DNA from: Natrinema sp. CBA1119
Lineage (GTDB): Archaea > Halobacteriota > Halobacteria > Halobacteriales > Natrialbaceae
Reading direction: 5' to 3'
DNA length: 64,000 bases
Assembly (NCBI RefSeq): GCF_002572525.1
Contig: NZ_PDBS01000001.1
Location: 1,860,001-1,924,000, forward strand
Of the stretch, positions 3,765 to 28,538 are shown in pieces; position 1 is the first letter of the stretch, and each line of letters starts with the position of its first letter. The position numbers and the translations under genes are program-made. Below the pieces are notes generated by a model, which had not been told where the DNA came from, did no database searches, and was given only the letters and a program-made list of their open reading frames with translations.

Positions 3765-4766
3765 TCACGGATCGATCGGTCTCATCGCACTCGCCGACTC
3801 GTTCCCCGCAGACTCGTTCCCCGCCGACTCGTTCGCACTCGAGTCCGCCGCGCCGAGCAGGTCCGTCTCGAACGTCCGTTCGTACGAGATGAAATCGAGC
3901 GGGACCGTGCGCTCGACGCCGCCGTACTCGAGGGTCGCGTCGAAGTCGACGGTCAGGTTCGACGCCTCGTCGTTCCGGAGGTGCGTGACCCACCACTCGT
4001 CGAGTCTGGAGTTATCGATGGCCGCAGTCGCCTCGAGCGATTGCGTCCCGTCGGGCCCCAGCACGGTCCGGTCGGCGGCGGTACCCGTTCCGACGACGAT
4101 TCCGTTCAACTGGACCGTGTACCTGATCTCCGTGATCGGGACCGGGATCGGCGTCGGGTTGGTCACCGTTGCCGACGCGTCGATCGGCGTTCGGTTCGCG
4201 GTAGCGTTCCCCCACGCCGCGTTCGTCTCGTTGACGACCAGTACCGTCCGACCGTACGCCTGAAACTCCTGACTCTCGTTCGTTTCGAGCGGCTCGAGCA
4301 GGTCCGTGTGGACTGTTCGAGTGCGCGTCCACTCGTCCGCCGGAAGGCGGATGCCGGCGACGTCGACGACGACGTCGGGTTGGACTCGCACCGTCGTCGT
4401 CTCGTTGCGATTGATATGGGAGGCCCACCACTCGGGGAGCTCGTCGTTGTCGAGCCGAGTCGAGACGCTGACGGTACTCTCGTCGCCACTGAGGTGGACG
4501 CGATTTTCTCGCTCCGTCGCGAACTCGATGTCGTTCATCGAAACCGTATAGGAGACGTCCGCCGCGGCGTCGCCGACGCGGAGCAACAGCGGATTGTCGA
4601 CGCCGATCCGCGTTTCGACTTCGGTCCGGTCGTTCGTGACGGTCCCCCACTCGTTGTCGACCGATTCGACCTGCGGCCGGTCCACCGCGAGGACGCCGTA
4701 GGCCGCGGTTGCGACGAGCAGGACGACTGCGAGGAGCAGTGCGATTCCAGTTCTCCGACGAACCAT
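3765..4766 (-). CDS. LEA type 2 / WHy-domain membrane-anchored protein
   Basis: A 333-residue protein with an N-terminal signal-anchor (about residues 7-27, after MVRRRTG) followed by two consecutive Ig-like repeats of the LEA_2/WHy type. Each repeat contains the pattern in which an N-terminal Asn-Pro strand (GVDNPLL; TVTNPTP) is followed by a YTV..N strand (DVSYTVSMND; EIRYTVQLNG). Matching DNDELPEWWASHI and DNSRLDEWWVTHL segments lie at the end of each repeat. The C-terminus is a short tandem NESAG repeat. The protein probably sits outside the membrane; LEA2 proteins in archaea are linked to desiccation or osmotic stress, though function here is unproven. The internal duplication is visible directly in the sequence. 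Confidence 0.82.
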   Translation of the reverse strand: MVRRRTGIALLLAVVLLVATAAYGVLAVDRPQVESVDNEWGTVTNDRTEVETRIGVDNPLLLRVGDAAADVSYTVSMNDIEFATERENRVHLSGDESTVSVSTRLDNDELPEWWASHINRNETTTVRVQPDVVVDVAGIRLPADEWTRTRTVHTDLLEPLETNESQEFQAYGRTVLVVNETNAAWGNATANRTPIDASATVTNPTPIPVPITEIRYTVQLNGIVVGTGTAADRTVLGPDGTQSLEATAAIDNSRLDEWWVTHLRNDEASNLTVDFDATLEYGGVERTVPLDFISYERTFETDLLGAADSSANESAGNESAGNESASAMRPIDP

Positions 4767-15706: not shown

Positions 15707-16090
15707 TCACTCCGAAGCTGACGGCAGCGCTCGAGCGACGTACAGCGTCCCCTCTGCGATCGTCTTCCGTTCGACCGACACTGCGGGCTGGTCACCGCCC
15801 AGCGTCGTAAACAGGAAATCGGCGTCGGCGTTGCGGGCCGCCTCGAGCGCCGGCCGGTGGAGTTCCGGCGGCAGGTTTCGCGCGTACACCACGTCTACAC
15901 TCGCGTAAATCGCGGGGTCGGGATCGACGATATCGTCGCGAACGAACTGTACCCCCTCCGGTACGTCGCGATCGTATATGTCGGTCGCGGTGACCGACAC
16001 TCCCCGTTCCGCGAGCGCTCGAGCGGAGTCGGTCCGGCGACCGATCCCGATCTCGACGGCGCGCTCGTAGCGCGCGAGGTGATCGTTCAT
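15707..16090 (-). CDS. UPF0146 family protein (methyltransferase-like)
   Basis: A 127-residue protein with a truncated Rossmann-like fold. The glycine motif VEIGIGRRTDSARAL with the adjacent VTATDIYDR acidic strand resembles SAM-binding motif I, and RNLPPELHRPALEAA plus FLFTTLGGDQP match the rest of UPF0146. Activity has not been shown for the family. The ATG at 16090 ends a much longer open frame that overlaps the archaemetzincin gene and is rejected. It is divergent from archaemetzincin with 69 bp between starts, an arrangement I expect in haloarchaea. Confidence 0.88.
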   Translation of the reverse strand: MNDHLARYERAVEIGIGRRTDSARALAERGVSVTATDIYDRDVPEGVQFVRDDIVDPDPAIYASVDVVYARNLPPELHRPALEAARNADADFLFTTLGGDQPAVSVERKTIAEGTLYVARALPSASE

Positions 16091-16159
16091 GGTCTCGAGA
16101 TTCCGGCGAGAGTGGGCCACGGCGGGACGTTTATGCCACCCGCGGCCATAGCACTTGCT

Positions 16160-16681
16160 ATGCTCGTCGATATCGTGCCGGTCGGCAACGTCCCCGCCGA
16201 GGTCAAGCGGGCGGCCTCCACCGCGTTGCGATCGGTCTACGACTGCGACGTGTCGGTCAACGACTCGCAGTCGGTCCCCAACGGAGCCTACGACTCCGAT
16301 CGAAACCAGTACTCCGCCGAGACGTTCATTCAGCTCGCCGAGCGGGTCGGCCGCGGCACCAAAAACATCGCGATCACTCCTCACGACCTCTTCTACCGAC
16401 GGCGCAACTACGTCTTCGGACTGGCCTACCTCGACGGCAGCGGGAGCGTCGTCTCGACCTACCGGCTGCAGACCTCGAGCGACGGCGGCTTCTCGAACCA
16501 GAGCGCCGCCGACATCTTCGAAGACCGCGTCCGCAAAGAGATCGTCCACGAGATCGGCCATACCTACGGCCTCGAGCACTGTGACAACAACCGCTGTGTC
16601 ATGAACTTCTCGCCGACCGTCCGCGAAGTCGACATCAAAGAGGAGAATCTCTGCGGGAGCTGTCAGCGACTGATTAGCTAA
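16160..16681 (+). CDS. amzA: Archaemetzincin metalloprotease
   Basis: A 173-residue protein with the archaemetzincin zinc signature HEIGHTYGLEHCDNNRCVM (about residues 131-149): three His ligands, the following Cys and the metzincin-type Met turn. A CGSC pair at the C-terminus completes the second, four-Cys zinc site expected in this family. N-terminal strand LVDIVPVGNVP matches as well. Archaemetzincins are small soluble peptidases or peptidase-like proteins of unknown physiological substrate. The ATG at 16160 is chosen because the longer open frame reads through the divergent UPF0146 gene. Confidence 0.95.
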   Translation: MLVDIVPVGNVPAEVKRAASTALRSVYDCDVSVNDSQSVPNGAYDSDRNQYSAETFIQLAERVGRGTKNIAITPHDLFYRRRNYVFGLAYLDGSGSVVSTYRLQTSSDGGFSNQSAADIFEDRVRKEIVHEIGHTYGLEHCDNNRCVMNFSPTVREVDIKEENLCGSCQRLIS

Positions 16682-18992: not shown

Positions 18993-20018
18993 CTATCCTA
19001 CATACTCAATGCCATCTGTTGCTTTGATCAGTTCCATCACCTCTAGCCGGGTCTCATAACCGGTTTCGTCTACTATCCTATTGAGGTCTGAGTCGGTAAC
19101 TGTCGCTTGGTCAGTGTTACTTGCATCAGCGGTTGTAGCAGTGCTCGTGGAGGAGAAACCAAACGATCCTGTACTCAAGAAGAAGTCTCCCCCTGTTTGG
19201 CCAGTTTCTGACTCTGTTGCAGTTATAATCCCGTAACCAAACCCATCGGTATTGATTCCGGCGATGGAAATAGTCACCTGATCACCGGCCTTGAGTTGGG
19301 TCTGTGGGGTAAATTCGATAGTCGCGCTCCCGCCATCTCGCGCTATGAAATCTGCAGAGTCCTTCTTTCTTGGACCATCTACTGCGATTACCTCAGCAGC
19401 ATCGTAATTAACACCACTAAGACCTTCAATCGCTATAGTAACCGTTCCTCCCTTGGAGAGCCTTCCGTTCATCGTAAACGAAATCTCTTGAGTTGCTGGC
19501 GTTGTATCTTGGATATCACTCGCACTGACGCTTTGGAATCCACCAGGGTCTGGATTCCCACCAGTACAACTATAGTCAAATGTATAACTATGATTTAAAT
19601 CATGAATCTCTAGTTGTTGGCTAGATGCAGATGCAGCGGTATTGATCACCGCAGTTCCGCTGCCACCGCCGGTACATGTCAACTCCAGCCCTGTCGTCTC
19701 TCCCTGACCGAGACTGGTTTGAAATCCGTCGCTGATTTCGAGTGCGTTTCTTGGATCAGAAAGACTAACATCAGTGTTCAGTGTCTCGAAGTCCTCATTA
19801 GCATTATTTACGAGTTCGAGTACAACTGCATTATTCTGATTGCTCGGCGTCTGACCGGTCTCTCTCACTCCGAGGAGTGCAGTCGACTGGTCATCAGCGA
19901 CCGTAACACTCGTACCGCGATCGGCCGCAAGTGACGAGAAACCAAATGTTGGTCCAGCCATCGCGATCACTCCAGCAATGATCAAACTGGCTGCAATTAC
20001 AGTATTGACTCTTGTCAT
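18993..20018 (-). CDS. Exported DUF1102/TasA-like surface protein
   Basis: A 341-residue exported protein. The N-terminus is a Sec-type signal with a hydrophobic core (VIAASLIIAGVIAMAG) ending in TFGFSSLAADRGTSVTV. Residues 28-52 match the pattern FSS--ADR---V----D-SA--G also seen in the protein at 23949-24464. The rest is Thr/Ser/Gly-rich with no Cys-rich core beyond a CTGGG and a CTGGN motif, and probably beta-rich (strands near SYTFDYSC, TIEFTPQTQ and VTISIAGI). This is the DUF1102/SipW-dependent type of surface protein. It follows the membrane regulator gene with a 1-nt gap, so both are one operon. The gene is markedly AT-richer than the regulator gene. Confidence 0.75.
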   Translation of the reverse strand: MTRVNTVIAASLIIAGVIAMAGPTFGFSSLAADRGTSVTVADDQSTALLGVRETGQTPSNQNNAVVLELVNNANEDFETLNTDVSLSDPRNALEISDGFQTSLGQGETTGLELTCTGGGSGTAVINTAASASSQQLEIHDLNHSYTFDYSCTGGNPDPGGFQSVSASDIQDTTPATQEISFTMNGRLSKGGTVTIAIEGLSGVNYDAAEVIAVDGPRKKDSADFIARDGGSATIEFTPQTQLKAGDQVTISIAGINTDGFGYGIITATESETGQTGGDFFLSTGSFGFSSTSTATTADASNTDQATVTDSDLNRIVDETGYETRLEVMELIKATDGIEYVG

Positions 20019-20019
20019 A

Positions 20020-20592
20020 TTACGGTAGTCGCTCTATCTCCCCGAGCCGCATTTGTCTGGTTTTTATCACATGGACAACCGCTGATACGGCAAACAACGC
20101 AAATACTAGCGTTGCCCAGGCAAGTTCCGGTATCATCTCTGTCGGAACGACCTCGAGCCACAACCCCGCCATCACGACCGAGCCGACCGCAGTTAACCCG
20201 AGGTAGTAGACGGCCCACGGGACCGAGTCGCCTGGGACGATATCGAGATAGACGTCCAGTTCGGCCGCCTCGTCCGTGAGTTCGATCGTTCGATCGTCGA
20301 ACTCGATCATATCCGCGCGCTCGAGCGTCGGGAGATGCGTTTGCTGGAGCGAGGTGTAGACGCGCTTTCGCTCGGCGGACGTGATCGCTTCGACGTCCTT
20401 CTCGAGTTCCCAGGCGGCGACGTGTTCGGCGAGGTCGCCCAGGGTGACGGGTTCGCCCTCGCGCTTGCAGTAGTGGATGGCGTACCGGCGGCGCTGGTTG
20501 CTTAACAGGTCAAAAATTTCACCTTCCCGCGACTGAGTGTCGTTGCTCGCAGGTCCTGTTTTGGTCGGCTGGCTCTCGCTGGTCGTTGCCAT
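20020..20592 (-). CDS. DUF7344-type winged-helix membrane regulator
   Basis: A 190-residue protein. After a Ser/Thr-rich start, residues 25-100 form a winged helix-turn-helix (IFDLLSNQRRRYAIHYCKRE, then VTLGDLAEHVAAWE, then RVYTSLQQTHLPTLERADMI). The pattern LSNQRRR is common to DUF7344 proteins. Two hydrophobic helices (about residues 125-148 and 155-178) end it. The type is a membrane-tethered DNA-binding protein of haloarchaea. It is the first gene of a two-gene operon with the exported TasA-like protein, so a role in regulating surface genes is plausible. It has normal GC content, unlike the gene it precedes. Confidence 0.8.
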   Translation of the reverse strand: MATTSESQPTKTGPASNDTQSREGEIFDLLSNQRRRYAIHYCKREGEPVTLGDLAEHVAAWELEKDVEAITSAERKRVYTSLQQTHLPTLERADMIEFDDRTIELTDEAAELDVYLDIVPGDSVPWAVYYLGLTAVGSVVMAGLWLEVVPTEMIPELAWATLVFALFAVSAVVHVIKTRQMRLGEIERLP

Positions 20593-20879
20593 TCCCCTGA
20601 TTAGTAGAATAACAGGACCGCTGATACATAACCCTTGCTGCCCACTCGTAATCGTCTAGCTCGAAAAATACTATCGACGTAGTCTGCTTAACCGTCAGTT
20701 CGGTAATGGCTGCAAACGGTTGTCGGTATTTAAACACGTCGGTCAGATCTTCGTTAGCCATATCGATCTGGTACCGAACTGAAAGAAGGGAGCACCCTCC
20801 TTTCGAAAACTGCCGATGAGTCCGTGATAAGATCAGTTCAGTCCGTGAGTTATACGAAACCGGTTCTGGAATCGCCCGC

Positions 20880-23516
20880 TCACTCGTCAATCGTTATCGT
20901 CTGCTCGGATACGCTGATCGCATAACCGCTCGTCGTCTCTTGCTCGTTCGTGACAGAGATTCCGATCTGCGTGTCCGCATCGACTTCAACCTCGTCTTTG
21001 GCGATCGTCTCGAAGATTTCGCGGAGAGCATCGGCGTTGTCGGCTTTGTAGAACTCCCCTCCGGTGTCCTGTGCCCAGTTCTCGAGTTGAGACTCGGGGA
21101 TAGGTGCATCCTCTGGTCCGGTCAGTCCAACGGTATAAATGGTCGTATTAAGCGTATTTGCCTCGTCTACCAGATCGTCCATGTCATCATTGTAGTCGTC
21201 GTCGCTGTTTTTCCCGTCGCTCAGCAACACTGTAATGCGTTCCTGGTCCGTGTCTTCGTTTTTGCGATAGTCGTCGAGGGCCTCATCCAGTCCAGCGGCC
21301 ATGTTCGTGCCGTAATATGCGTTGCCTTCGACGCTTTGTTTCGCCGCCTCGAGGTCACCATCCAGCTCGTGGAGAACGTTAGCGTTCTGTTCGAACTCGT
21401 ATACTCCCACGCGATCACCGTTGCTCTCCTTCATCAACTCAATGAAATTCCTTGTCGCTTCAACGCGGACTCCCGATGGATCGTTCCCCGGATGATTATA
21501 CGTGCCGAGTATCGCATCAGGGTGACACCGATAACACGATTCGACGCGAATTTCCTGCCAGTTGTCCGGATCGGCTGGATCTCGGCGTTCAAGTCGCTTT
21601 GTCTCACCCGTAGTCGTATTTCTAAGTATGACGTCGTCACCGTCTACGTTTCGGAACGGCTCGTCGACGGGAATCGGTCGCCAGTCGTCGCCGTAAATAT
21701 ATTCCTCATCGATAGGCGTGTACGTGTTCCACGGTCTATTGGGGTTGTGCGGCCCCATCGAGCCGGATCGATCCAGCACGAACGTCGCGTCGATAGGCGC
21801 TCTCGTATCACCGTACTCGAACATCTTGTTTTCATCGGCGTCCGAAAGCGGTGTGTCCGTCCGGAGCGACCGATCGAAGTTGATCTCGACGTTGTCGCCG
21901 ATCCCCGCATCGTTGCCGGCGACGATTGCGCCGTCTATCGTCGTCCTATCTGCGATCTCGATATCGGCACCCGGCGCATAGATCACACCTTGGAAGTCGC
22001 CATCGATCGTTATCTCCGAATCGCTTGAGGCGTAAATCCAGAGGGCGTTCGCTCGGTCGTCGGGTTCGATATCGACGTCCGAGAGCTCGACGTCGCCATC
22101 GACGTAGATGCTCGTCCGGTTGTCCCCTTTCACCTCGACATTGTTGAGATCGACGTCACTATCGACGCCAATGTGAACGTTTCCGTCCGACGAATCGAGG
22201 GTATCAATAGATCCGGTTCCCTCGTACAATCCTGCGGTGACGGCTCCGTCAGCAGTTGGGTTCCCGCCGAGGTAGTTCGTTTGAACGTCGTCGATTTCAC
22301 TGTTGACCTCGTCGATGTCGCTGTACGAGGTGGACAACTCGGTTGCAAGTGCATCCCTGTCACTTTCACTCGCACCTAACCAGTACGCGTTGTTATCCTC
22401 GTCAAACGGACCCCTGTTATGTACCGGGTTGACAGTGAGACCGTATCCGATCGAAGAGAGCTCTGGATTGCCAAGAGAACTGAGATCACCATTTACGACT
22501 GGTACACCCGCTATGTTCGCGTGGTTGTCGAGAGTGTACGTATCGTAGTTCGCCAGGAAGAGGTCCTCGCTCTCATTGGTTCCAGTTCTATGACCGTCGT
22601 ATCCGTTCACCTCGAGTCGGTTACTGAAGCGGTCCGACGTTCCTTCGATATACAGGCCGCCGTATACCGTCGGTTCGATATCTACGAGGTTCGCGAGCGG
22701 TGCCTCCCCGTCGACGGTCGCGACGACGGTAACCGTCTCTCCCAGTTCGTCGTGGCAGATGATGTTCTCGTCGACGTTACCGGGGTTAGTACAGTTTGCC
22801 GAGACCTTACTTTCGTCGGTCGCATCGAACTCTTCTTTCAAAAAGTCGTACCATCCGTGATGGTATGAGGTGCCGGTAACCTCGACCGTCACGTAGTTCA
22901 CGTACTCGATGTCCTCACCGAACGAGTCGAACGTGTTCAAGCCGGTTTGCTGCGCACTGTGTTCTCCGCTCCCGATGGACCCGTCAATCGTCGTGGGCGA
23001 AACGTCGACTCGTCCGACGTGTTCACCGTTGACGGTTTCGGTGTAGTATCTGAGATTCGGATCCGTCACCGCCGTCGCTCGATCATCGTTGAGGCGCCAG
23101 AGGCCTCCTCCTTGATACGCGAACTCGTTCCCACTCTCGTCAGTTGTAACCAGCGTGCGAAGTTCGATAGGATCGCTCTCGTCTTTCACGTAGCCGTCCG
23201 ATACCGTTACTGTAAGTTCGCCATCTATTACGATTTCGTTTTCAGTCCCTTCATCGAGATAGACAGATTTCGGCGTATCGTTTTGCATCCCGAGCGTCGC
23301 CAAATCCGAATCGAACTGTTTCAGCGTTTGCTCGGTTTGTTCTGCGTGTGTTTGTGACTGAAGCACGTCAAACATCGCCGAGCCGGCGACGAAGACCAGC
23401 ATCGCGCCCATCATCACGAGCGCGAACAACAGTATGATCCCGATGAGCGGACTCGCGGCATGCGTGTCCCGACGTTCGCGGGTATCTCCCCACCTGCACC
23501 TTTCCTTGTCGGCCAT
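20880..23516 (-). CDS. Large pilin-like von Willebrand factor A protein
   Basis: An 878-residue protein of three parts. Residues 1-60: basic start, a segment SPLIGIILLFALVMMGA like a DUF7289 haloarchaeal type IV pilin-like N-terminus, and then a Q/E-rich coil (QTHAEQTEQTLKQFD). Residues 61-570: beta-rich secreted region, including a polymer-forming/PilX-like stretch (GDFQGVIYAPGADIE ... GAIVAGNDAGIGDN). Residues 572-850: vWA domain with MIDAS DRSGSMG (about 577-583), a later ITVLLSDGKN and the Thr/Asp positions. An insertion in the vWA domain carries CYRCHP (about 661-666), a CxxCH pattern. It is probably an adhesive surface fibre component; the vWA would bind a metal-dependent ligand. Confidence 0.85.
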   Translation of the reverse strand: MADKERCRWGDTRERRDTHAASPLIGIILLFALVMMGAMLVFVAGSAMFDVLQSQTHAEQTEQTLKQFDSDLATLGMQNDTPKSVYLDEGTENEIVIDGELTVTVSDGYVKDESDPIELRTLVTTDESGNEFAYQGGGLWRLNDDRATAVTDPNLRYYTETVNGEHVGRVDVSPTTIDGSIGSGEHSAQQTGLNTFDSFGEDIEYVNYVTVEVTGTSYHHGWYDFLKEEFDATDESKVSANCTNPGNVDENIICHDELGETVTVVATVDGEAPLANLVDIEPTVYGGLYIEGTSDRFSNRLEVNGYDGHRTGTNESEDLFLANYDTYTLDNHANIAGVPVVNGDLSSLGNPELSSIGYGLTVNPVHNRGPFDEDNNAYWLGASESDRDALATELSTSYSDIDEVNSEIDDVQTNYLGGNPTADGAVTAGLYEGTGSIDTLDSSDGNVHIGVDSDVDLNNVEVKGDNRTSIYVDGDVELSDVDIEPDDRANALWIYASSDSEITIDGDFQGVIYAPGADIEIADRTTIDGAIVAGNDAGIGDNVEINFDRSLRTDTPLSDADENKMFEYGDTRAPIDATFVLDRSGSMGPHNPNRPWNTYTPIDEEYIYGDDWRPIPVDEPFRNVDGDDVILRNTTTGETKRLERRDPADPDNWQEIRVESCYRCHPDAILGTYNHPGNDPSGVRVEATRNFIELMKESNGDRVGVYEFEQNANVLHELDGDLEAAKQSVEGNAYYGTNMAAGLDEALDDYRKNEDTDQERITVLLSDGKNSDDDYNDDMDDLVDEANTLNTTIYTVGLTGPEDAPIPESQLENWAQDTGGEFYKADNADALREIFETIAKDEVEVDADTQIGISVTNEQETTSGYAISVSEQTITIDE

Positions 23517-23948
23517 TTTCAGCTTAATAGCGGTTACTTCATAAAAGCATACATGATATTTTAGTTATCAAGGATGATTACTGGACAGTCAAGTACCTCT
23601 TGTGTGGTGCTTGCGCTGCTACTGGCGCAGTCGGGGAATAGCCGAGTGTATCACTTTTACTTACAAATCGCACCTGAAATGGGATCGGGAAATTATTTCG
23701 CCACTGGTCGAGCAATCCGTCCTCGAGTCTCGAGCACACGCGGTTCACCCGACGGTGTTCAGGGGGTGCTTGTGTTGATTGACGATCTCGATCACCGCTT
23801 CAGGCTCGGCTTGAACGGTCGTATGGCCGGTCTTTCGGATGTTCTGGATACTCAATACAAAGTGGGTGACGTTCGTGGGAGCGAGTAGGAACTGCGTTCT
23901 GGCATCCCTCGGAGGTTGATGCTGGGGCGTGGAACGGTGACCATAATC
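23517..23948 (+). other. Intergenic region between divergent surface genes
   Basis: This 432-bp AT-richer gap holds the promoters of the vWA gene (minus) and of the TasA-like gene (plus). A 104-codon open frame at 23574-23888 has no haloarchaeal amino-acid bias (it is neither acidic nor alanine-rich) and no recognisable domain. A hydrophobic start (SCVVLALLLAQSG) makes it only a weak candidate. Otherwise I see nothing here beyond an A/T-rich block just upstream of 23574. Confidence 0.5.
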
Positions 23949-24464
23949 ATGAGAATGAATCGTCGTAATGTGTTAGTCGGATTGGGTACGATTGTCGCGG
24001 GCGGCGGAGCCGCGCTCGGAACGGGCGCGTTTAGTAGTGTGGAAGCGGATCGGACCGTGACTGTGAGTACCTCCGGTGATAGTAGCGCATATATCGGTAT
24101 CTCAGTTGATGGGAGCTATGCGACAGACAACGGTGGAGGCGATGCAGTCGAAGTCAACCTCGGAGATAGCTATAACGATTCGGCGACAACTCGAATAAAC
24201 GGCGTTCTAACGCTTGAAAATAATGCCGCCGATAGCGGAGACGTTTTAGTCAGTCTTGGTGATAGTTCGGCACACGATAACAGCACAACAATCGGCGTAG
24301 ACGATGTCGCAGAAGTCACCTTTGAGTTAAGTACTACTGATACTGGTGAAAGCTACTATACCCTCACAACTGAGAATTCGGTAGCGATTGACGTTACTGT
24401 TGACACAACTATTGACAGTCCAGGAACTGACGACTCTATTTCGCTCTACGCGGAAAGCGCATAA
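23949..24464 (+). CDS. DUF1102/SipW-dependent (TasA-like) surface protein
   Basis: A 171-residue exported protein. N-terminus MRMNRRNVLVGLG plus a Gly/Ala core and the exit motif GTGAFSSVEADR is the canonical haloarchaeal SipW-dependent signal. The RR in NRRNV also fits a Tat signal, so the export route is uncertain. The mature part is about 140 residues of beta-rich sequence: TVTVSTSGDSSAYIGI, a middle repeat of acidic Ser/Thr strands and an acidic end. It is short like TasA/camelysin-type fibre subunits. The ATG at 23949 is used; a second ATG at 23955 would remove two residues. The gene sits 80 bp before the Ig-fold protein and upstream of the signal peptidase gene. Confidence 0.8.
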   Translation: MRMNRRNVLVGLGTIVAGGGAALGTGAFSSVEADRTVTVSTSGDSSAYIGISVDGSYATDNGGGDAVEVNLGDSYNDSATTRINGVLTLENNAADSGDVLVSLGDSSAHDNSTTIGVDDVAEVTFELSTTDTGESYYTLTTENSVAIDVTVDTTIDSPGTDDSISLYAESA

Positions 24465-24544
24465 ATCGATACTTGAGTGCTCTCCTGAGAACGTATTGGA
24501 TACTGATACCGTGTATGTAAGTGTGTGATGGGGTTAAAACTAGA

Positions 24545-25669
24545 ATGGGATTGTCTACACAACTATCCGTTGTTATTTGCATTCTTCTTATTGTCGTAGT
24601 ACCGGCCACCGCAGCGGTCACGATTGGCGAAGAACGGGGCACTGCTGATGTCATTCTGGAGCCGACCGACACCCAATACGCCTCGATTGATGACGGCGAA
24701 ATCAAAATCGACTTCCAGAAACTCAACGACCGTGCAATCACCCGCGTAGACGATGTCTTCACCATCTCGGTCACCGACGACGATGTCGAACGGATCTGGA
24801 TCGAGAACGACGTTCCCGGACTCACCTTCTACAGGGGCGACGATCCGACGAACACGATCAGCCGATCGAACCCCCTCGAGCCGATGCCGGGTTCGACAAC
24901 CAGCATCGGCGTCGCGGTTGACACGCACGAGGCGGTCAACGGGACGGAGACGTTCACGGTCGTCGCGCAGTACGAGGACGAGGACGAAACCGAGTCCGAT
25001 ATCGACGGCTCTAACCTGAGCGTTTCGCCGACGAACGTCGAGGCGGGCGAGACGGTCACGGTCAACGCGACCTACCGAAATAACGGCGACGGGTGGGGCA
25101 CCGAAACGGCCCGGCTGACGGTCGGCGGGACCGTCGTCGACCGGCGAACGATCGCCCTCTCGTCGGGCGAGGAAGAGACCGTCAGCTTCGAGCGACGCAT
25201 GGAGTGGCCCGGCACGTACGATGTCGGAATCGAGGGACTCGGGCATCAGTCGGTGACCGTCGAGGGTCCGCAGGTCGAGGTCTCGAGCGCCACCATCGAC
25301 GACGCAACGATCACCGCCGGCGAGACCGCCACCGTCCGGGCGACGGTTCGGAACCCGTCCGACAGATCACTCGAGCGAACGCTCGAGCTTTCGGTCGACG
25401 GCATCGTCGTCGATACCAGAACCGTTTCGATCCCGGCCAACGGCGAGCGGACGGTGACCTTCGAGCGGCGGTTCGCGGCGGCGGGGACCTACGAGGTCGG
25501 GGTCAGCGGCGTGTCCGCAGGGACGGTGACCGTCGAGGAACCGGGGCCGTTTTCGATCCAGAACCGCGAGCTCTCGGCGGCGACGACGGCGGCGCTCGCG
25601 CCGCCCGCGACGGCCGGACTGTTGGCCCTGGCGGTCGTCGCGAACCGGCGGTGGACCGTTTTCCGCTAG
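24545..25669 (+). CDS. Membrane-anchored CARDB/Ig-fold surface protein
   Basis: A 374-residue exported protein. It has a signal sequence (LSVVICILLIVVVPATAAV), a first domain of about 130 residues that continues like the N-terminal DUF1102 proteins (TIGEERGTADVILEPTD), and then two CARDB-like Ig domains. These carry the repeated patterns NVEAGETVTVNATYRN and TITAGETATVRATVRN (about residues 170-235 and 255-320). A C-terminal hydrophobic anchor (LAPPATAGLLALAVVAN) is followed by RRW. The domain pair suggests an extracellular cell-wall-linked protein. The start MGLSTQL is chosen over a GTG eight codons earlier. It is downstream of the TasA-like gene, probably the same transcript. Confidence 0.82.
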   Translation: MGLSTQLSVVICILLIVVVPATAAVTIGEERGTADVILEPTDTQYASIDDGEIKIDFQKLNDRAITRVDDVFTISVTDDDVERIWIENDVPGLTFYRGDDPTNTISRSNPLEPMPGSTTSIGVAVDTHEAVNGTETFTVVAQYEDEDETESDIDGSNLSVSPTNVEAGETVTVNATYRNNGDGWGTETARLTVGGTVVDRRTIALSSGEEETVSFERRMEWPGTYDVGIEGLGHQSVTVEGPQVEVSSATIDDATITAGETATVRATVRNPSDRSLERTLELSVDGIVVDTRTVSIPANGERTVTFERRFAAAGTYEVGVSGVSAGTVTVEEPGPFSIQNRELSAATTAALAPPATAGLLALAVVANRRWTVFR

Positions 25670-26010
25670 TTCGTTTGTCACCACGTCTCGAAACCACGAC
25701 CAGTACGGACAACTGTCCTGCTCAGGCCGGCAACTAGGGATTTCCACGCCCTCCCCAGCCGACTCGTTCGCTCGCAGGCTCGCTCACTCATCCCTCGCAC
25801 GATGTCACCGACGCACTCTCGAGTTTTCTCGAGCGCGTCGCCAGCGCGCGCCACCGCAGGGTGACAGTCAGTGGAGCCGAAACGCGAGGTCTCTCGAGCA
25901 CGCGACGGACGATGGGACTCCCCGTCGGAACTCTCGCGGGCTTTATACTGGTGAAGTAACATAGTGTAGTCGAACAGTCAGCCAGCCATGATCGTACTCG
26001 TCACTCGTCG
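25670..26010 (+). other. Intergenic region with repeat-like sequence and the signal-peptidase promoter
   Basis: The 341-bp gap begins with a low-complexity stretch (about 25730-25800: CTCGTTCGCTCGCAGGCTCG with many CTCG/CGCTC repeats), then a short palindrome TCGAGTTTTCTCGA near 25820. It resembles sequence that often follows insertion sequences in haloarchaea, but I cannot prove a mobile-element origin. The last part has a TATA box at 25942-25949 and a minimal upstream ORF at 25988-26014. No larger gene is visible. Confidence 0.45.
25942..25949 (+). promoter_or_regulatory. TATA box of the signal peptidase gene
   Basis: TTTATACT is centred about 26 nt upstream of position 25972. A transcript starting there would have a 16-nt leader before the uORF at 25988 and about 39 nt before the gene start at 26011. 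Confidence 0.5.
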
Positions 26011-26014
26011 ATGA
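25988..26014 (+). other. Eight-codon upstream ORF overlapping the signal peptidase start
   Basis: ATG at 25988 encodes MIVLVTRR and stops with TGA at 26012-26014, overlapping the ATG at 26011 in an ATGA configuration. Such an overlap can couple translation. I cannot tell whether it is used. It is the first ATG after the predicted transcription start. Confidence 0.35.
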
Positions 26015-27192
26015 CTACCGCGTCACTCCTCAAGCGGGGGCTCGGGTTCGGCCTCGCGCTGGTCGTCGTCCTGCTGATCGTCGGGCAGCTCCTCGGACAG
26101 CCGATTCTGCTCGGCTACGTCGCGACCGGTAGCATGGAGCCTGCGGTGGACGCCGGCGACGGGTTCGTCTCCGTTCCCAGCGCCGTCACCGGCGACATCG
26201 AGGAGGGCGACGTCGTCGTCTTTCAGGCCAAAGAACTCCACGGCGGCGGGCTGACGACTCACCGCGTGGTCGGCGAGACCGAGGAGGGGTACGTCACGAA
26301 GGGCGACGCGAACCCGTTTACCGATCAGGACGGCGGTGAGCCCCACGTCACGGACGGCCAGATCGTCGCCAAAGCCTGGCAGGTAAACGGGGAGGTCGTG
26401 ACGATCCCTCACCTCGGAACGGCCGTTATGGGCATTCAGAGCTTCGCAACGGGGACTTACGAAACCGTCGCGTCGATCCTCGGCCTGACGACGACCGCCT
26501 CCGGTAACGGGCTCGGCGCAATGTTGGTCGCGATCGGCGTTGCCATGCTCGGCTTCGGGACGGTGTTCGAGCGACTCGGTCCGACGCGGCGCGAGACGAG
26601 CAGACGGCGCTCGCGAGAGAACGTGATCGCGTTCTGGACGACGCTCGGCCTCATCCTGCTCCTGTTTGCTACCCTGGCAACCGCTGCGATGGTCGTCCCG
26701 TCTGGGACGTCCGAGTACGGGTTCGTGAGCACCGAATCACCGACCGACGACCCCCAGATCGTCGCGCCGGGTGCGACAACCGAACTCACCAGGTCGGTCG
26801 ATAACGCCGGTTACCTGCCGGTAGTGGTCGTCCACGACGCCGAAAGCGAGGGGATCGCGGCCGATCCCGGGTGGCAGACGCTCGGGATTCGTGGGAGCGG
26901 AGAGACGACGGTGACGCTGTCCGCGCCTGAGGAAACGGGAGAATATACGCGTCATCTCGGTGAATACCGGTATCTCGCCGTTCTCCCGCCGTCGGTGCTG
27001 GTTTGGCTCCACGGGATTCACCCCTTCGCCGCGATTGCCGCGGTAAACGGGGTCATCGTCGGGATCACCGTTGCAATCGTCCTCGTGATCTTCGGCAGCG
27101 GCGATCTCCGGGTTCGGTCTGCGGGGGGTCACGTCCCACTCTCGACCCGCCTCGAGCGACGACTGCGGAAGTGGCTTCGCGACCGAGAGTAG
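26011..27192 (+). CDS. SipW/Sec11-type signal peptidase I with C-terminal membrane extension
   Basis: A 393-residue protein. Residues 1-170 are a signal peptidase of the archaeal/ER (S26B) type: N-terminal helix, catalytic Ser in ATGSMEPAV (about 47), His in LTTHRVVG (about 90) in place of the bacterial Lys, and the KGDANPFTDQ acidic box. Then come a hydrophobic segment (about 165-185), another helix pair (about 205-230 and 330-360), an extracellular part of about 100 residues and a basic tail. The size is double that of plain archaeal SPase, and the additional part is not recognised. Its location between Ig-fold and DUF5305 surface genes points to a dedicated protease for the locus's exported proteins. 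Confidence 0.85.
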   Translation: MTTASLLKRGLGFGLALVVVLLIVGQLLGQPILLGYVATGSMEPAVDAGDGFVSVPSAVTGDIEEGDVVVFQAKELHGGGLTTHRVVGETEEGYVTKGDANPFTDQDGGEPHVTDGQIVAKAWQVNGEVVTIPHLGTAVMGIQSFATGTYETVASILGLTTTASGNGLGAMLVAIGVAMLGFGTVFERLGPTRRETSRRRSRENVIAFWTTLGLILLLFATLATAAMVVPSGTSEYGFVSTESPTDDPQIVAPGATTELTRSVDNAGYLPVVVVHDAESEGIAADPGWQTLGIRGSGETTVTLSAPEETGEYTRHLGEYRYLAVLPPSVLVWLHGIHPFAAIAAVNGVIVGITVAIVLVIFGSGDLRVRSAGGHVPLSTRLERRLRKWLRDRE

Positions 27193-27211
27193 CCGCTCGA
27201 GGCCACTACCC

Positions 27212-27218
27212 TTATAAT
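27212..27218 (+). promoter_or_regulatory. TATA box upstream of the DUF5305 gene
   Basis: TTATAAT is centred 26 nt before the ATG at 27241, giving a transcript that would begin at or close to that ATG. It indicates an independent promoter for the DUF5305 region, separate from the signal peptidase promoter. Confidence 0.5.
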
Positions 27219-27240
27219 GGTCGGTTTCTTTCACACACGC

Positions 27241-27357
27241 ATGTATTGTTCCGGTGACCGACCAGTTCGGAAACGGACAGCTCGGCCAGCGGGCGGGCGT
27301 GGTCGGCCAGCGGACGAGTTCGGACGACGAGGCCGAATCGGAAGGGGTGGCAAATGA
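27241..27357 (+). CDS. Small ORF (38 residues) before DUF5305, possible leader peptide
   Basis: ATG at 27241 opens a 38-codon frame rich in Arg and Gly (MYCSGDRPVRKRTARPAG...), ending at a TGA that overlaps the DUF5305 start in an ATGA arrangement. The predicted transcription start lies exactly at this ATG. The composition is unlike a haloarchaeal acidic protein, so it may be a regulatory leader or simply untranslated sequence. A competing GTG frame at 27254 is more acidic at first but becomes Arg-rich later. Confidence 0.3.
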   Translation: MYCSGDRPVRKRTARPAGGRGRPADEFGRRGRIGRGGK

Positions 27358-28538
27358 TCGACAGCCCGCGGCTCGAACTGGTGCTCGCCAGACACGGACG
27401 CGCGATCGCGATCGCGCTGGTCGTCGTCGGCGTTCTCGCGATCGCCGCAACCGGTTGGGCAGTCGCGAATCCGGTGACGACGACTGCGGCCCAGTTCAGC
27501 GAAGAACGCGTCACGACCGACGCGGAAACGAGCGCCGTCGTCACCGAGAACGGCACGCTCTGGACCGAGGGCGAGCGCCTCGAGGATAGCTCAGTTTACT
27601 TTCTGAATGCCACGCCGGAGTTGACGATCCGGCCCGAGACGCGGCTCCGTAACGAAACCGGCGGGACCCCTATCGAGGACGGGGACGTGACGCACGAACT
27701 ACGGCTTCGGTTCGAGGCGACCCGCGACGGCTCAACGTTCTGGAACGAGAGCCACGAGGTGGTCGCCGAGTCGGCGTCGGTCGAGAACGGCGTCGCAACG
27801 TCGAACGCGACGATCGACGTGGAATCCTACCGGCAGCGACAGCGACAACTCGAGCGCGAGGTCTCCGGCATCGGTTCGGTCGAGTTGTCGATGGTGCTCC
27901 GCGTCGAGTACGATACGGGCCGTCAGCAGGGGACAGTGACGACGACGACGCCGGTAGAGATAACGGACGACGCCTACTGGCTCGGGAACTCGCTGTCGGA
28001 TTCGGCGACGCACAGCCATCGGAGCGGGACGGCGCGGACGACCGAGTCCCGCAGTGCGACGCTTGTCGGCGGTCTCTCGGTGCTCGGAACGCTGTCGCTG
28101 GCCGGTGCAGCGCTCGTCGCCCGCCGGTCTCCCGCGGATCTCGAGGCGGCCCGTCGTGCGGTCCACGAACGGCGCTACGCCGAGTGGATCTCGCAGGGCT
28201 CGATCCCGATGTGGATTGGCGACTATCACGTCTCGCTCGACACGCTCGAGGACGTGGTCGACGTCGCGATCGATACGAACGAACGCGTCGTCCACGACAC
28301 GCAGCGGGGGCTGTTCGCGGTCGTCAACGACGGCGTCGTCTACTACTACAGCGACCGCGGCCTCTGGGAGGAGACCGCCTGGCCGGAGATGGACCTCGAG
28401 GAACAGCCGGCCGTCATCGACGGCGACGGGGACCTGTCGCCCGAGGATCTCTCGGAGCTCGACCCGAGCGACGAGTTCGCGGCGGCCGACGATCCGGACG
28501 GGTTCGAGGACGACCGGAACGTCTGGGAGCGACTCTGA
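27354..28538 (+). CDS. DUF5305 domain membrane protein
   Basis: A 394-residue protein: an N-terminal signal-anchor (AIAIALVVVGVLAIAATGWA, about residues 17-36), a long extracellular beta-rich region (residues 40-225) with Thr/Glu-rich strands, a second hydrophobic helix (LVGGLSVLGTLSLAGAALVA, about 235-254), and an intracellular acidic C-terminus of about 140 residues. This two-helix layout with a long exterior domain matches DUF5305, which I know from haloarchaeal neighbours of signal peptidase genes. The function is not known. The internal region GDYHVSLDTLEDVVDVAIDT is conserved-looking. It overlaps the small ORF by 4 nt. Confidence 0.78.
   Translation: MIDSPRLELVLARHGRAIAIALVVVGVLAIAATGWAVANPVTTTAAQFSEERVTTDAETSAVVTENGTLWTEGERLEDSSVYFLNATPELTIRPETRLRNETGGTPIEDGDVTHELRLRFEATRDGSTFWNESHEVVAESASVENGVATSNATIDVESYRQRQRQLEREVSGIGSVELSMVLRVEYDTGRQQGTVTTTTPVEITDDAYWLGNSLSDSATHSHRSGTARTTESRSATLVGGLSVLGTLSLAGAALVARRSPADLEAARRAVHERRYAEWISQGSIPMWIGDYHVSLDTLEDVVDVAIDTNERVVHDTQRGLFAVVNDGVVYYYSDRGLWEETAWPEMDLEEQPAVIDGDGDLSPEDLSELDPSDEFAAADDPDGFEDDRNVWERL

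Follow-up and report, generated by a model that had tools for sequence, protein, structure and literature searches.

A probable divergent Tat-fimbria locus in Natrinema sp. CBA1119 with a conserved leader and variable pilin bodies

Introduction

Fimbriae exported by the twin-arginine translocation (Tat) pathway have already been reported for haloarchaea (Galeva et al. 2025, as presented in the citing article PMC12687288). In the Bacillus TasA-TapA-SipW system, TasA is processed by the signal peptidase SipW, and the Phe at its position P2′ suits it to SipW while making it a poor substrate for LepB (PMC10269814). Archaeal bundling pili, represented by the Pyrobaculum structure 7ueg, have been described as TasA-like (PMC9674648). 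Here we analyse a locus at positions 18993 to 28538 of a 64,000-nucleotide stretch of the Natrinema sp. CBA1119 genome (the window), for which an original prediction, made from the sequence alone, had proposed a haloarchaeal version of the TasA-SipW system. The evidence indicates that it is very probably a divergent Tat-fimbria (taf) surface fibre locus of this Natrinema-group haloarchaeon. The taf-type assignment is made because loci whose TafA, TafC, TafE and TafF proteins score above curated cut-offs hold the same winged helix and extended signal peptidase. The fibre system itself is not new in kind, Tat-fimbriae being known; this variant, its architecture of a fixed leader with a variable body, and its candidate operator appear to be new, judged by literature searches and general knowledge. 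The locus brings together a solved archaeal pilin and curated Taf families in a single conserved neighbourhood with a dedicated, domain-extended peptidase, which makes the assembly machinery testable. Its pilin appears to carry a fixed address tag on a swapped body, and the operator makes regulation testable.

The seven open reading frames (ORFs) of the locus, P1 to P7, were all confirmed at their predicted coordinates; they are listed here with an upstream repeat. L-numbers denote the loci compared, and G000 the genome carrying the window.

18993..20018, minus strand: P1, TafC-like exported subunit, candidate tip or adhesin (TafC model, alignment of 11 relatives)
20020..20592, minus strand: P2, DUF7344 winged-helix protein with two C-terminal membrane segments, candidate regulator (PF24035, E 4.9e-30)
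20880..23516, minus strand: P3, DUF7289/DUF7305/vWA surface protein with an intact start (DRSGS) of the metal ion-dependent adhesion site (MIDAS) (Pfam)
23799..23817, plus strand: inverted repeat TTCAGG-CTCGG-CTTGAACG, candidate operator, 150 bp 5′ of the pilin start
23949..24464, plus strand: P4, TafE/TafA-like pilin with leader MRMNRRNVLVGLGTIVAGGGAALGTG and predicted mature start AFSSVEADR (TafE, TafA and 9p0a matches)
24545..25669, plus strand: P5, exported protein with two CARDB domains and a C-terminal membrane segment, at TafF's position, candidate fibre base
26011..27192, plus strand: P6, dedicated signal peptidase of the endoplasmic reticulum (ER) type (Ser41/His84) with a C-terminal membrane domain (TIGR02228)
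27354..28538, plus strand: P7, DUF5305 membrane protein, candidate accessory or assembly factor (PF17231, E 1.3e-49)

Comparison with known fibre systems

The locus shares with the Tat-fimbriae (tafi) a TafC-like protein, a winged helix, a TafE/A-like pilin, a gene at TafF's position, an extended Sec11-type signal peptidase and DUF5305, together with a pilin that has a twin-arginine (RR) leader with a G-[AST]-F-[ST] exit. It differs from them in that its TafC-like protein has a leader of the general secretory (Sec) type and no lectin match, and in the CARDB domains of P5, an extra vWA neighbour and a different gene order. Like the Bacillus TasA-TapA-SipW system, the locus has a dedicated ER-type signal peptidase adjoining a predicted beta-sandwich subunit, a Phe at P2′ and, likely, donor-strand assembly; it differs in using Tat rather than Sec for pilin export, in the extra membrane domain of its peptidase and in having no sequence-family match to the Bacillus system. 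The Pyrobaculum bundling pilus is likewise an archaeal fibre and its fold is among the best Foldseek matches (E 1.5e-2), but identity is 14% and the score is weak.

A pilin related to a solved structure

Profile searches used the NCBIfam Taf models (NF052520 to NF052523, for TafA, TafC, TafE and TafF). P4 matched the TafE model, "TafE family fimbrial adapter protein", at 74.2 bits (E 1e-20), under the equivalog cut-off of 155 bits, and the TafA model at 46.6 bits (E 4e-12), under the cut-off of 190 bits. A solved pilin from N. gari, 9p0a, likewise falls under the TafE cut-off (77.3 bits). The TafC model (NF052521) aligned to the same N-terminal region of both P4 (E 1e-5) and P1 (E 1.7e-8 over residues 10-139, under cut-off), so that the N-terminal pattern seen in both exported proteins by the original prediction goes beyond chance.

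Evidence for a fibre locus also came from the PDB. The leader region of P4 finds 9p0a, named "Pilin", at E 6e-18, and the N. gari gene at P4's syntenic place (L034:7965-8612) encodes the 9p0a protein exactly (215/215 residues). The exit motif AFSSVEADR is identical in the two pilins, with one difference in the first 36 residues. Outside the leader they are ~16% identical and, judged from sequence, are different pilin types with bodies far apart. A profile of mature P4-type proteins finds 9p0a at 6.8e-45, although the N. gari protein is itself among those profiled, so this match is not independent.

The two leaders, described originally simply as signal peptides, are of different types: that of P4 is twin-arginine (MRMNRRNVLVG) and ends GTG-AFSS, while that of P1 has no RR and looks Sec-type. 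An RR occurs within the first 12 residues of 17/17 P4-like genes, and mature P4-type residues A1, F2, S3, V5, A7 and R9 are invariant in the alignment. These proteins are predicted to exit at G-[AGST]-F-[ST], which puts Phe at P2′. The generic TAT model scored P4 at 13.6 bits, under its 16.7 cut-off.

An AlphaFold2 model of mature P4 is all-beta, with a mean predicted local distance difference test (pLDDT) score of 82 that is lowest over the N-terminal ten residues. Its top Foldseek matches in the PDB are donor-strand pilins: FimA, the archaeal bundling pilus 7ueg and SafA. The modelled fold supports donor-strand assembly without proving it, because the Foldseek scores are weak.

Several observations weigh against assignment to the Tat-fimbriae. 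P4, P1 and P5 are under the curated Taf cut-offs or have no match, and the locus has one pilin, with no TafA-type major pilin above cut-off. When only the bodies were compared, the profile match between P4 and the 9p0a type had a probability of 28%. The top three Foldseek matches have probabilities of 0.98-1.00, but the best E value is 3e-3 and none is <= 1e-3, and 9p0a is absent among the matches listed for P4. Finally, the canonical TafC at L097 has an RR motif and P1 does not.

A dedicated signal peptidase in a conserved neighbourhood

P6 matches the archaeal/ER-type (Sec11) signal peptidase model TIGR02228 at 54.7 bits, over the cut-off of 51.85. Ser41 and His84, the Ser/His dyad, are invariant in nine homologues, the genome's housekeeping copy included, and a long C-terminal extension contributes three further membrane segments, in agreement with the peptidase architecture proposed originally. 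Three peptidases in the genome are over the archaeal model's cut-off: a housekeeping copy (114 bits, C1:3731839), P6, and one in a second taf-like locus. P6 is therefore not the sole housekeeping copy, and a housekeeping role for it was rejected given the stronger Sec11 match elsewhere. Two adjoining ORFs at G000:C1:1520454-1521905 (in L019) also match the archaeal signal peptidase model weakly, under cut-off.

Linkage across the order (195 genomes) provides strong evidence that P6-type peptidases are associated with TafE-family genes. A TafE-family gene lies within 10 kb of at least 97/150 full-length P6 homologues listed, where ~1.4 would be expected; 97 is a lower bound, because it rests on the TafE-family genes among the matches listed, which missed the genome's own second taf-like locus and so left it among the 53 unlinked. 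The peptidase thus clusters elsewhere with TafE-family genes, and the expectation of a haloarchaeal fibre locus with a dedicated peptidase is upheld by this linkage and by the identity of the N. gari syntenic pilin with 9p0a.

Related loci in Natrinema, Natronorubrum and related genera keep the peptidase-DUF5305 pair in 15/15 cases. Those with full flanks also keep the pilin, the CARDB gene and the winged helix (the last in all but L023). Canonical loci have the same company: a winged helix 49-56% identical to P2 adjoins TafA in most of the over-cut-off TafA/TafE loci checked, and an extended peptidase 38-45% identical to P6 is present in over-cut-off TafA/C/E/F loci (38-42% in the three read at length, two of which have a weak DUF5305 match). 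In L097, where TafC scores 568 bits and TafF 582 bits, the homologues of P2 and P6 are 54% and 41% identical, respectively. Profile searches verified the domains predicted for P2 (DUF7344 winged helix), P5 (CARDB, 1e-13) and P7 (DUF5305).

Besides a DUF7344 winged helix and a TafE-like pilin, the second, diverged taf-like locus of the same genome (G000:C1:2994750-3001667; L017:5751-12668) encodes a repetitive TafC-like protein of 522 aa and two more small exported proteins. It also has an extended signal peptidase of its own, 44% identical to P6, which DUF5305 adjoins here too.

A fixed leader on a variable, probably replaced pilin body

Over 11 syntenic genes, mean identity is 93% for the first 36 pilin residues and 30% for the rest, compared with 76% for the peptidase. 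Where residues agree, their codons agree at a rate of 0.57 in the leader and 0.60 in the peptidase gene. These values do not support gene conversion as the keeper of leader identity; because they are about equal, the leader is probably held by selection at the protein level.

In three close-relative pairs, promoter and leader are alike (0.73-0.97) and identity falls to 0.33-0.61 in the pilin body. Between the window and N. zhouii, whose peptidase is 91% identical, DNA identity is ~0.9 just upstream of the pilin gene and in the leader, 0.3-0.5 through the pilin body into the start of the next gene, and 0.7-0.9 thereafter. L027/L029 have the same fall after the leader and the same recovery, and L026/L031 only the fall, because the stretch examined stops before the next gene. 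A control pair of the same pilin type, L028/L034, stays at ~0.8-0.97 across leader and body. The window's body type occurs in 14/125 genomes of the family, from 7 genera. The whole P1 gene is also dissimilar from that of N. zhouii while its flanks are conserved, and G+C content is 49-55% from 19 to 25 kb and 63-66% either side.

The simplest reading of these sequence comparisons is horizontal replacement of the pilin body. The sharp change could instead reflect rapid divergence in place, a reading that concerns variability only and not the identity of the fibre. The genome holds no silent pilin cassette or second copy of the body that could act as donor, and distances in body and peptidase correlate somewhat (r 0.41; the neighbouring anchor gene gives r 0.91), as divergence in place would predict. 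However, in two pairs the fall in DNA identity is abrupt, setting in after the leader and ending by the next gene, between flanks at ~0.7-0.97, and the body nearest to the window's is in another genus (51-52%), though N. zhouii is nearest by peptidase. Divergence in place therefore seems rather unlikely.

Surface variation by proteins with a fixed tag and a swapped body is familiar from bacterial pathogens. To our knowledge, it is undescribed for archaeal Tat-fimbriae.

A candidate operator and possible type-switching

Many loci have a conserved inverted repeat, TTCARG-N5-CTTGAACG, ~118-154 bp upstream of the pilin; the 5.06-Mb genome has a single copy, which lies 150 bp upstream of P4. Since the motif was derived from these alignments, the starting loci are not independent, and genome-wide scans provide the test. 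The palindrome was found in 39/125 family genomes, with 53 matches listed versus ~8 for a reversed-pattern control; a palindrome scores once per strand, and the 53 therefore stand for a smaller number of separate sites, about 40. A recognisable Tat-pilin leader lies downstream in 25/30 loci checked. No copy was found in viral contigs for the one exact sequence tried. The P2 winged helix is a candidate for the protein that binds the palindrome upstream of P4.

Taken further, these data would fit a model in which Tat-fimbriae are modular and type-switching: a constant block of operator, promoter, leader and donor strand would be retained, the pilin body and, separately, the TafC-like gene would be horizontally replaced, and the winged helix would exert control via the palindrome. 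We put this forward tentatively, as a possibility somewhat short of an even chance. If it is true, type-switching gives surface variation (for example, against viruses) with export and assembly unbroken.

Model for assembly and alternative explanations

In the best-supported model, P4 is the fibre subunit, exported via its twin-arginine leader. P6 would cut it at a predicted site, GTG|AFSS, which places Phe at P2′, the residue found there in Bacillus TasA. The mature N-terminus, AFSSVEADR, would probably act as a donor strand that completes the beta-sandwich of a neighbouring subunit, so that subunits would chain without an outer-membrane usher or an ATPase. With the same exit motif and N-terminal domain, P1 is probably a tip or adhesin subunit at the end of the fibre, whose base P5 probably anchors in the membrane. 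The DUF5305 protein P7 and the additional membrane domain of P6 may together form a handover platform, and regulation by P2 would probably run via the palindrome. Homology, synteny, catalytic residues, leader motif and operator conservation are the elements of this scheme that rest on the data presented here.

The system proposed originally, a true TasA/camelysin-DUF1102 fibre with a SipW peptidase, is very improbable. It would account for the Phe at the predicted P2′, for one weak structural match to the TasA-like 7ueg and for the match of the SipW model NF046067 to P6 (E 5.4e-8). That match reaches 32.6 bits against an equivalog cut-off of 190, however, and neither P1 nor P4 matched DUF1102 (PF06510), PF12389 or TIGR04088 (E <= 1). 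The pilin has a Tat leader where a Sec leader would be expected, and the Taf models and 9p0a match far better. Membership in the DUF1102, TasA, camelysin or SipW families was therefore rejected.

It is equally improbable that P4 and P1 are stand-alone, unpolymerised secreted surface proteins and that P6 is a second signal peptidase of general use. In favour of this reading, fibres have so far not been observed in this strain, P4-like and TafC-like genes are also found away from the peptidase (for example, L018:7128-8264) and 53/150 peptidases have no nearby TafE-family gene among the matches listed. Against it, the N. gari protein in P4's place is a solved "Pilin", the linkage is strong and conserved, and the 53 are an overcount that includes the genome's own second locus.

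The TafC-like protein and other neighbours

In an alignment of 11 relatives, the N-terminal beta domain of P1 is conserved, with two Cys (115 and 151) near-invariant, and the C-terminal part varies. Its leader exits at GP-TFG-FSS-LAADR. RR is missing from the leader in the window and most relatives and the exit motif is the same as the pilin's, hinting that one peptidase may serve both a Sec and a Tat substrate. At its C-terminus canonical TafC has a Laminin_G_3 lectin domain, suggesting that TafC-like proteins serve to display an adhesive domain; different sequence takes its place in the window and in related loci. The AlphaFold2 model of P1 was poor (pLDDT 60), and its fold matches were not used. 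Three TafC-like proteins of relatives (L026:1521-3185, L031:4479-5585 and L034:2932-3978) have short C-terminal GD-rich repeats with a beta-helix-like look, unlike the lectin-bearing canonical TafC, which suggests that the adhesive part is exchanged too. The genome also encodes an orphan TafC-like protein (L018:7128-8264, ~C1:423,100-424,300) with an RR leader and a TGAFSQ exit; it adjoins a small winged-helix-like gene (L018:6691-7062), and no peptidase was seen nearby.

The CARDB match in P5 covers two stretches, the membrane segment spans residues 348-366, and P5 is 23-24% identical to the canonical-locus gene that scores 582 bits as TafF. For P3, which has DUF7289 at its N-terminus, the predicted vWA domain was recovered (3.9e-13, with the DRSGS MIDAS motif), and a role as a conserved core part was rejected: a full-length homologue occurs only in N. 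zhouii (84% identical), other relatives having a different DUF7289 protein or nothing. P3 is, judging by this distribution, a lineage-specific neighbour. A role of P2 or P3 in anti-phage defence was also rejected, with no PADLOC match.

Elsewhere in the window, positions 15857-16681 encode an archaemetzincin-family metalloprotease (NF033823, E 5.4e-55) near an ABCE1-like ABC protein and EMC6, a region that forms a flank of the taf locus kept in several relatives. Positions 3765-4766 encode a LEA_2-domain protein (E 4.7e-18) with an N-terminal hydrophobic segment.

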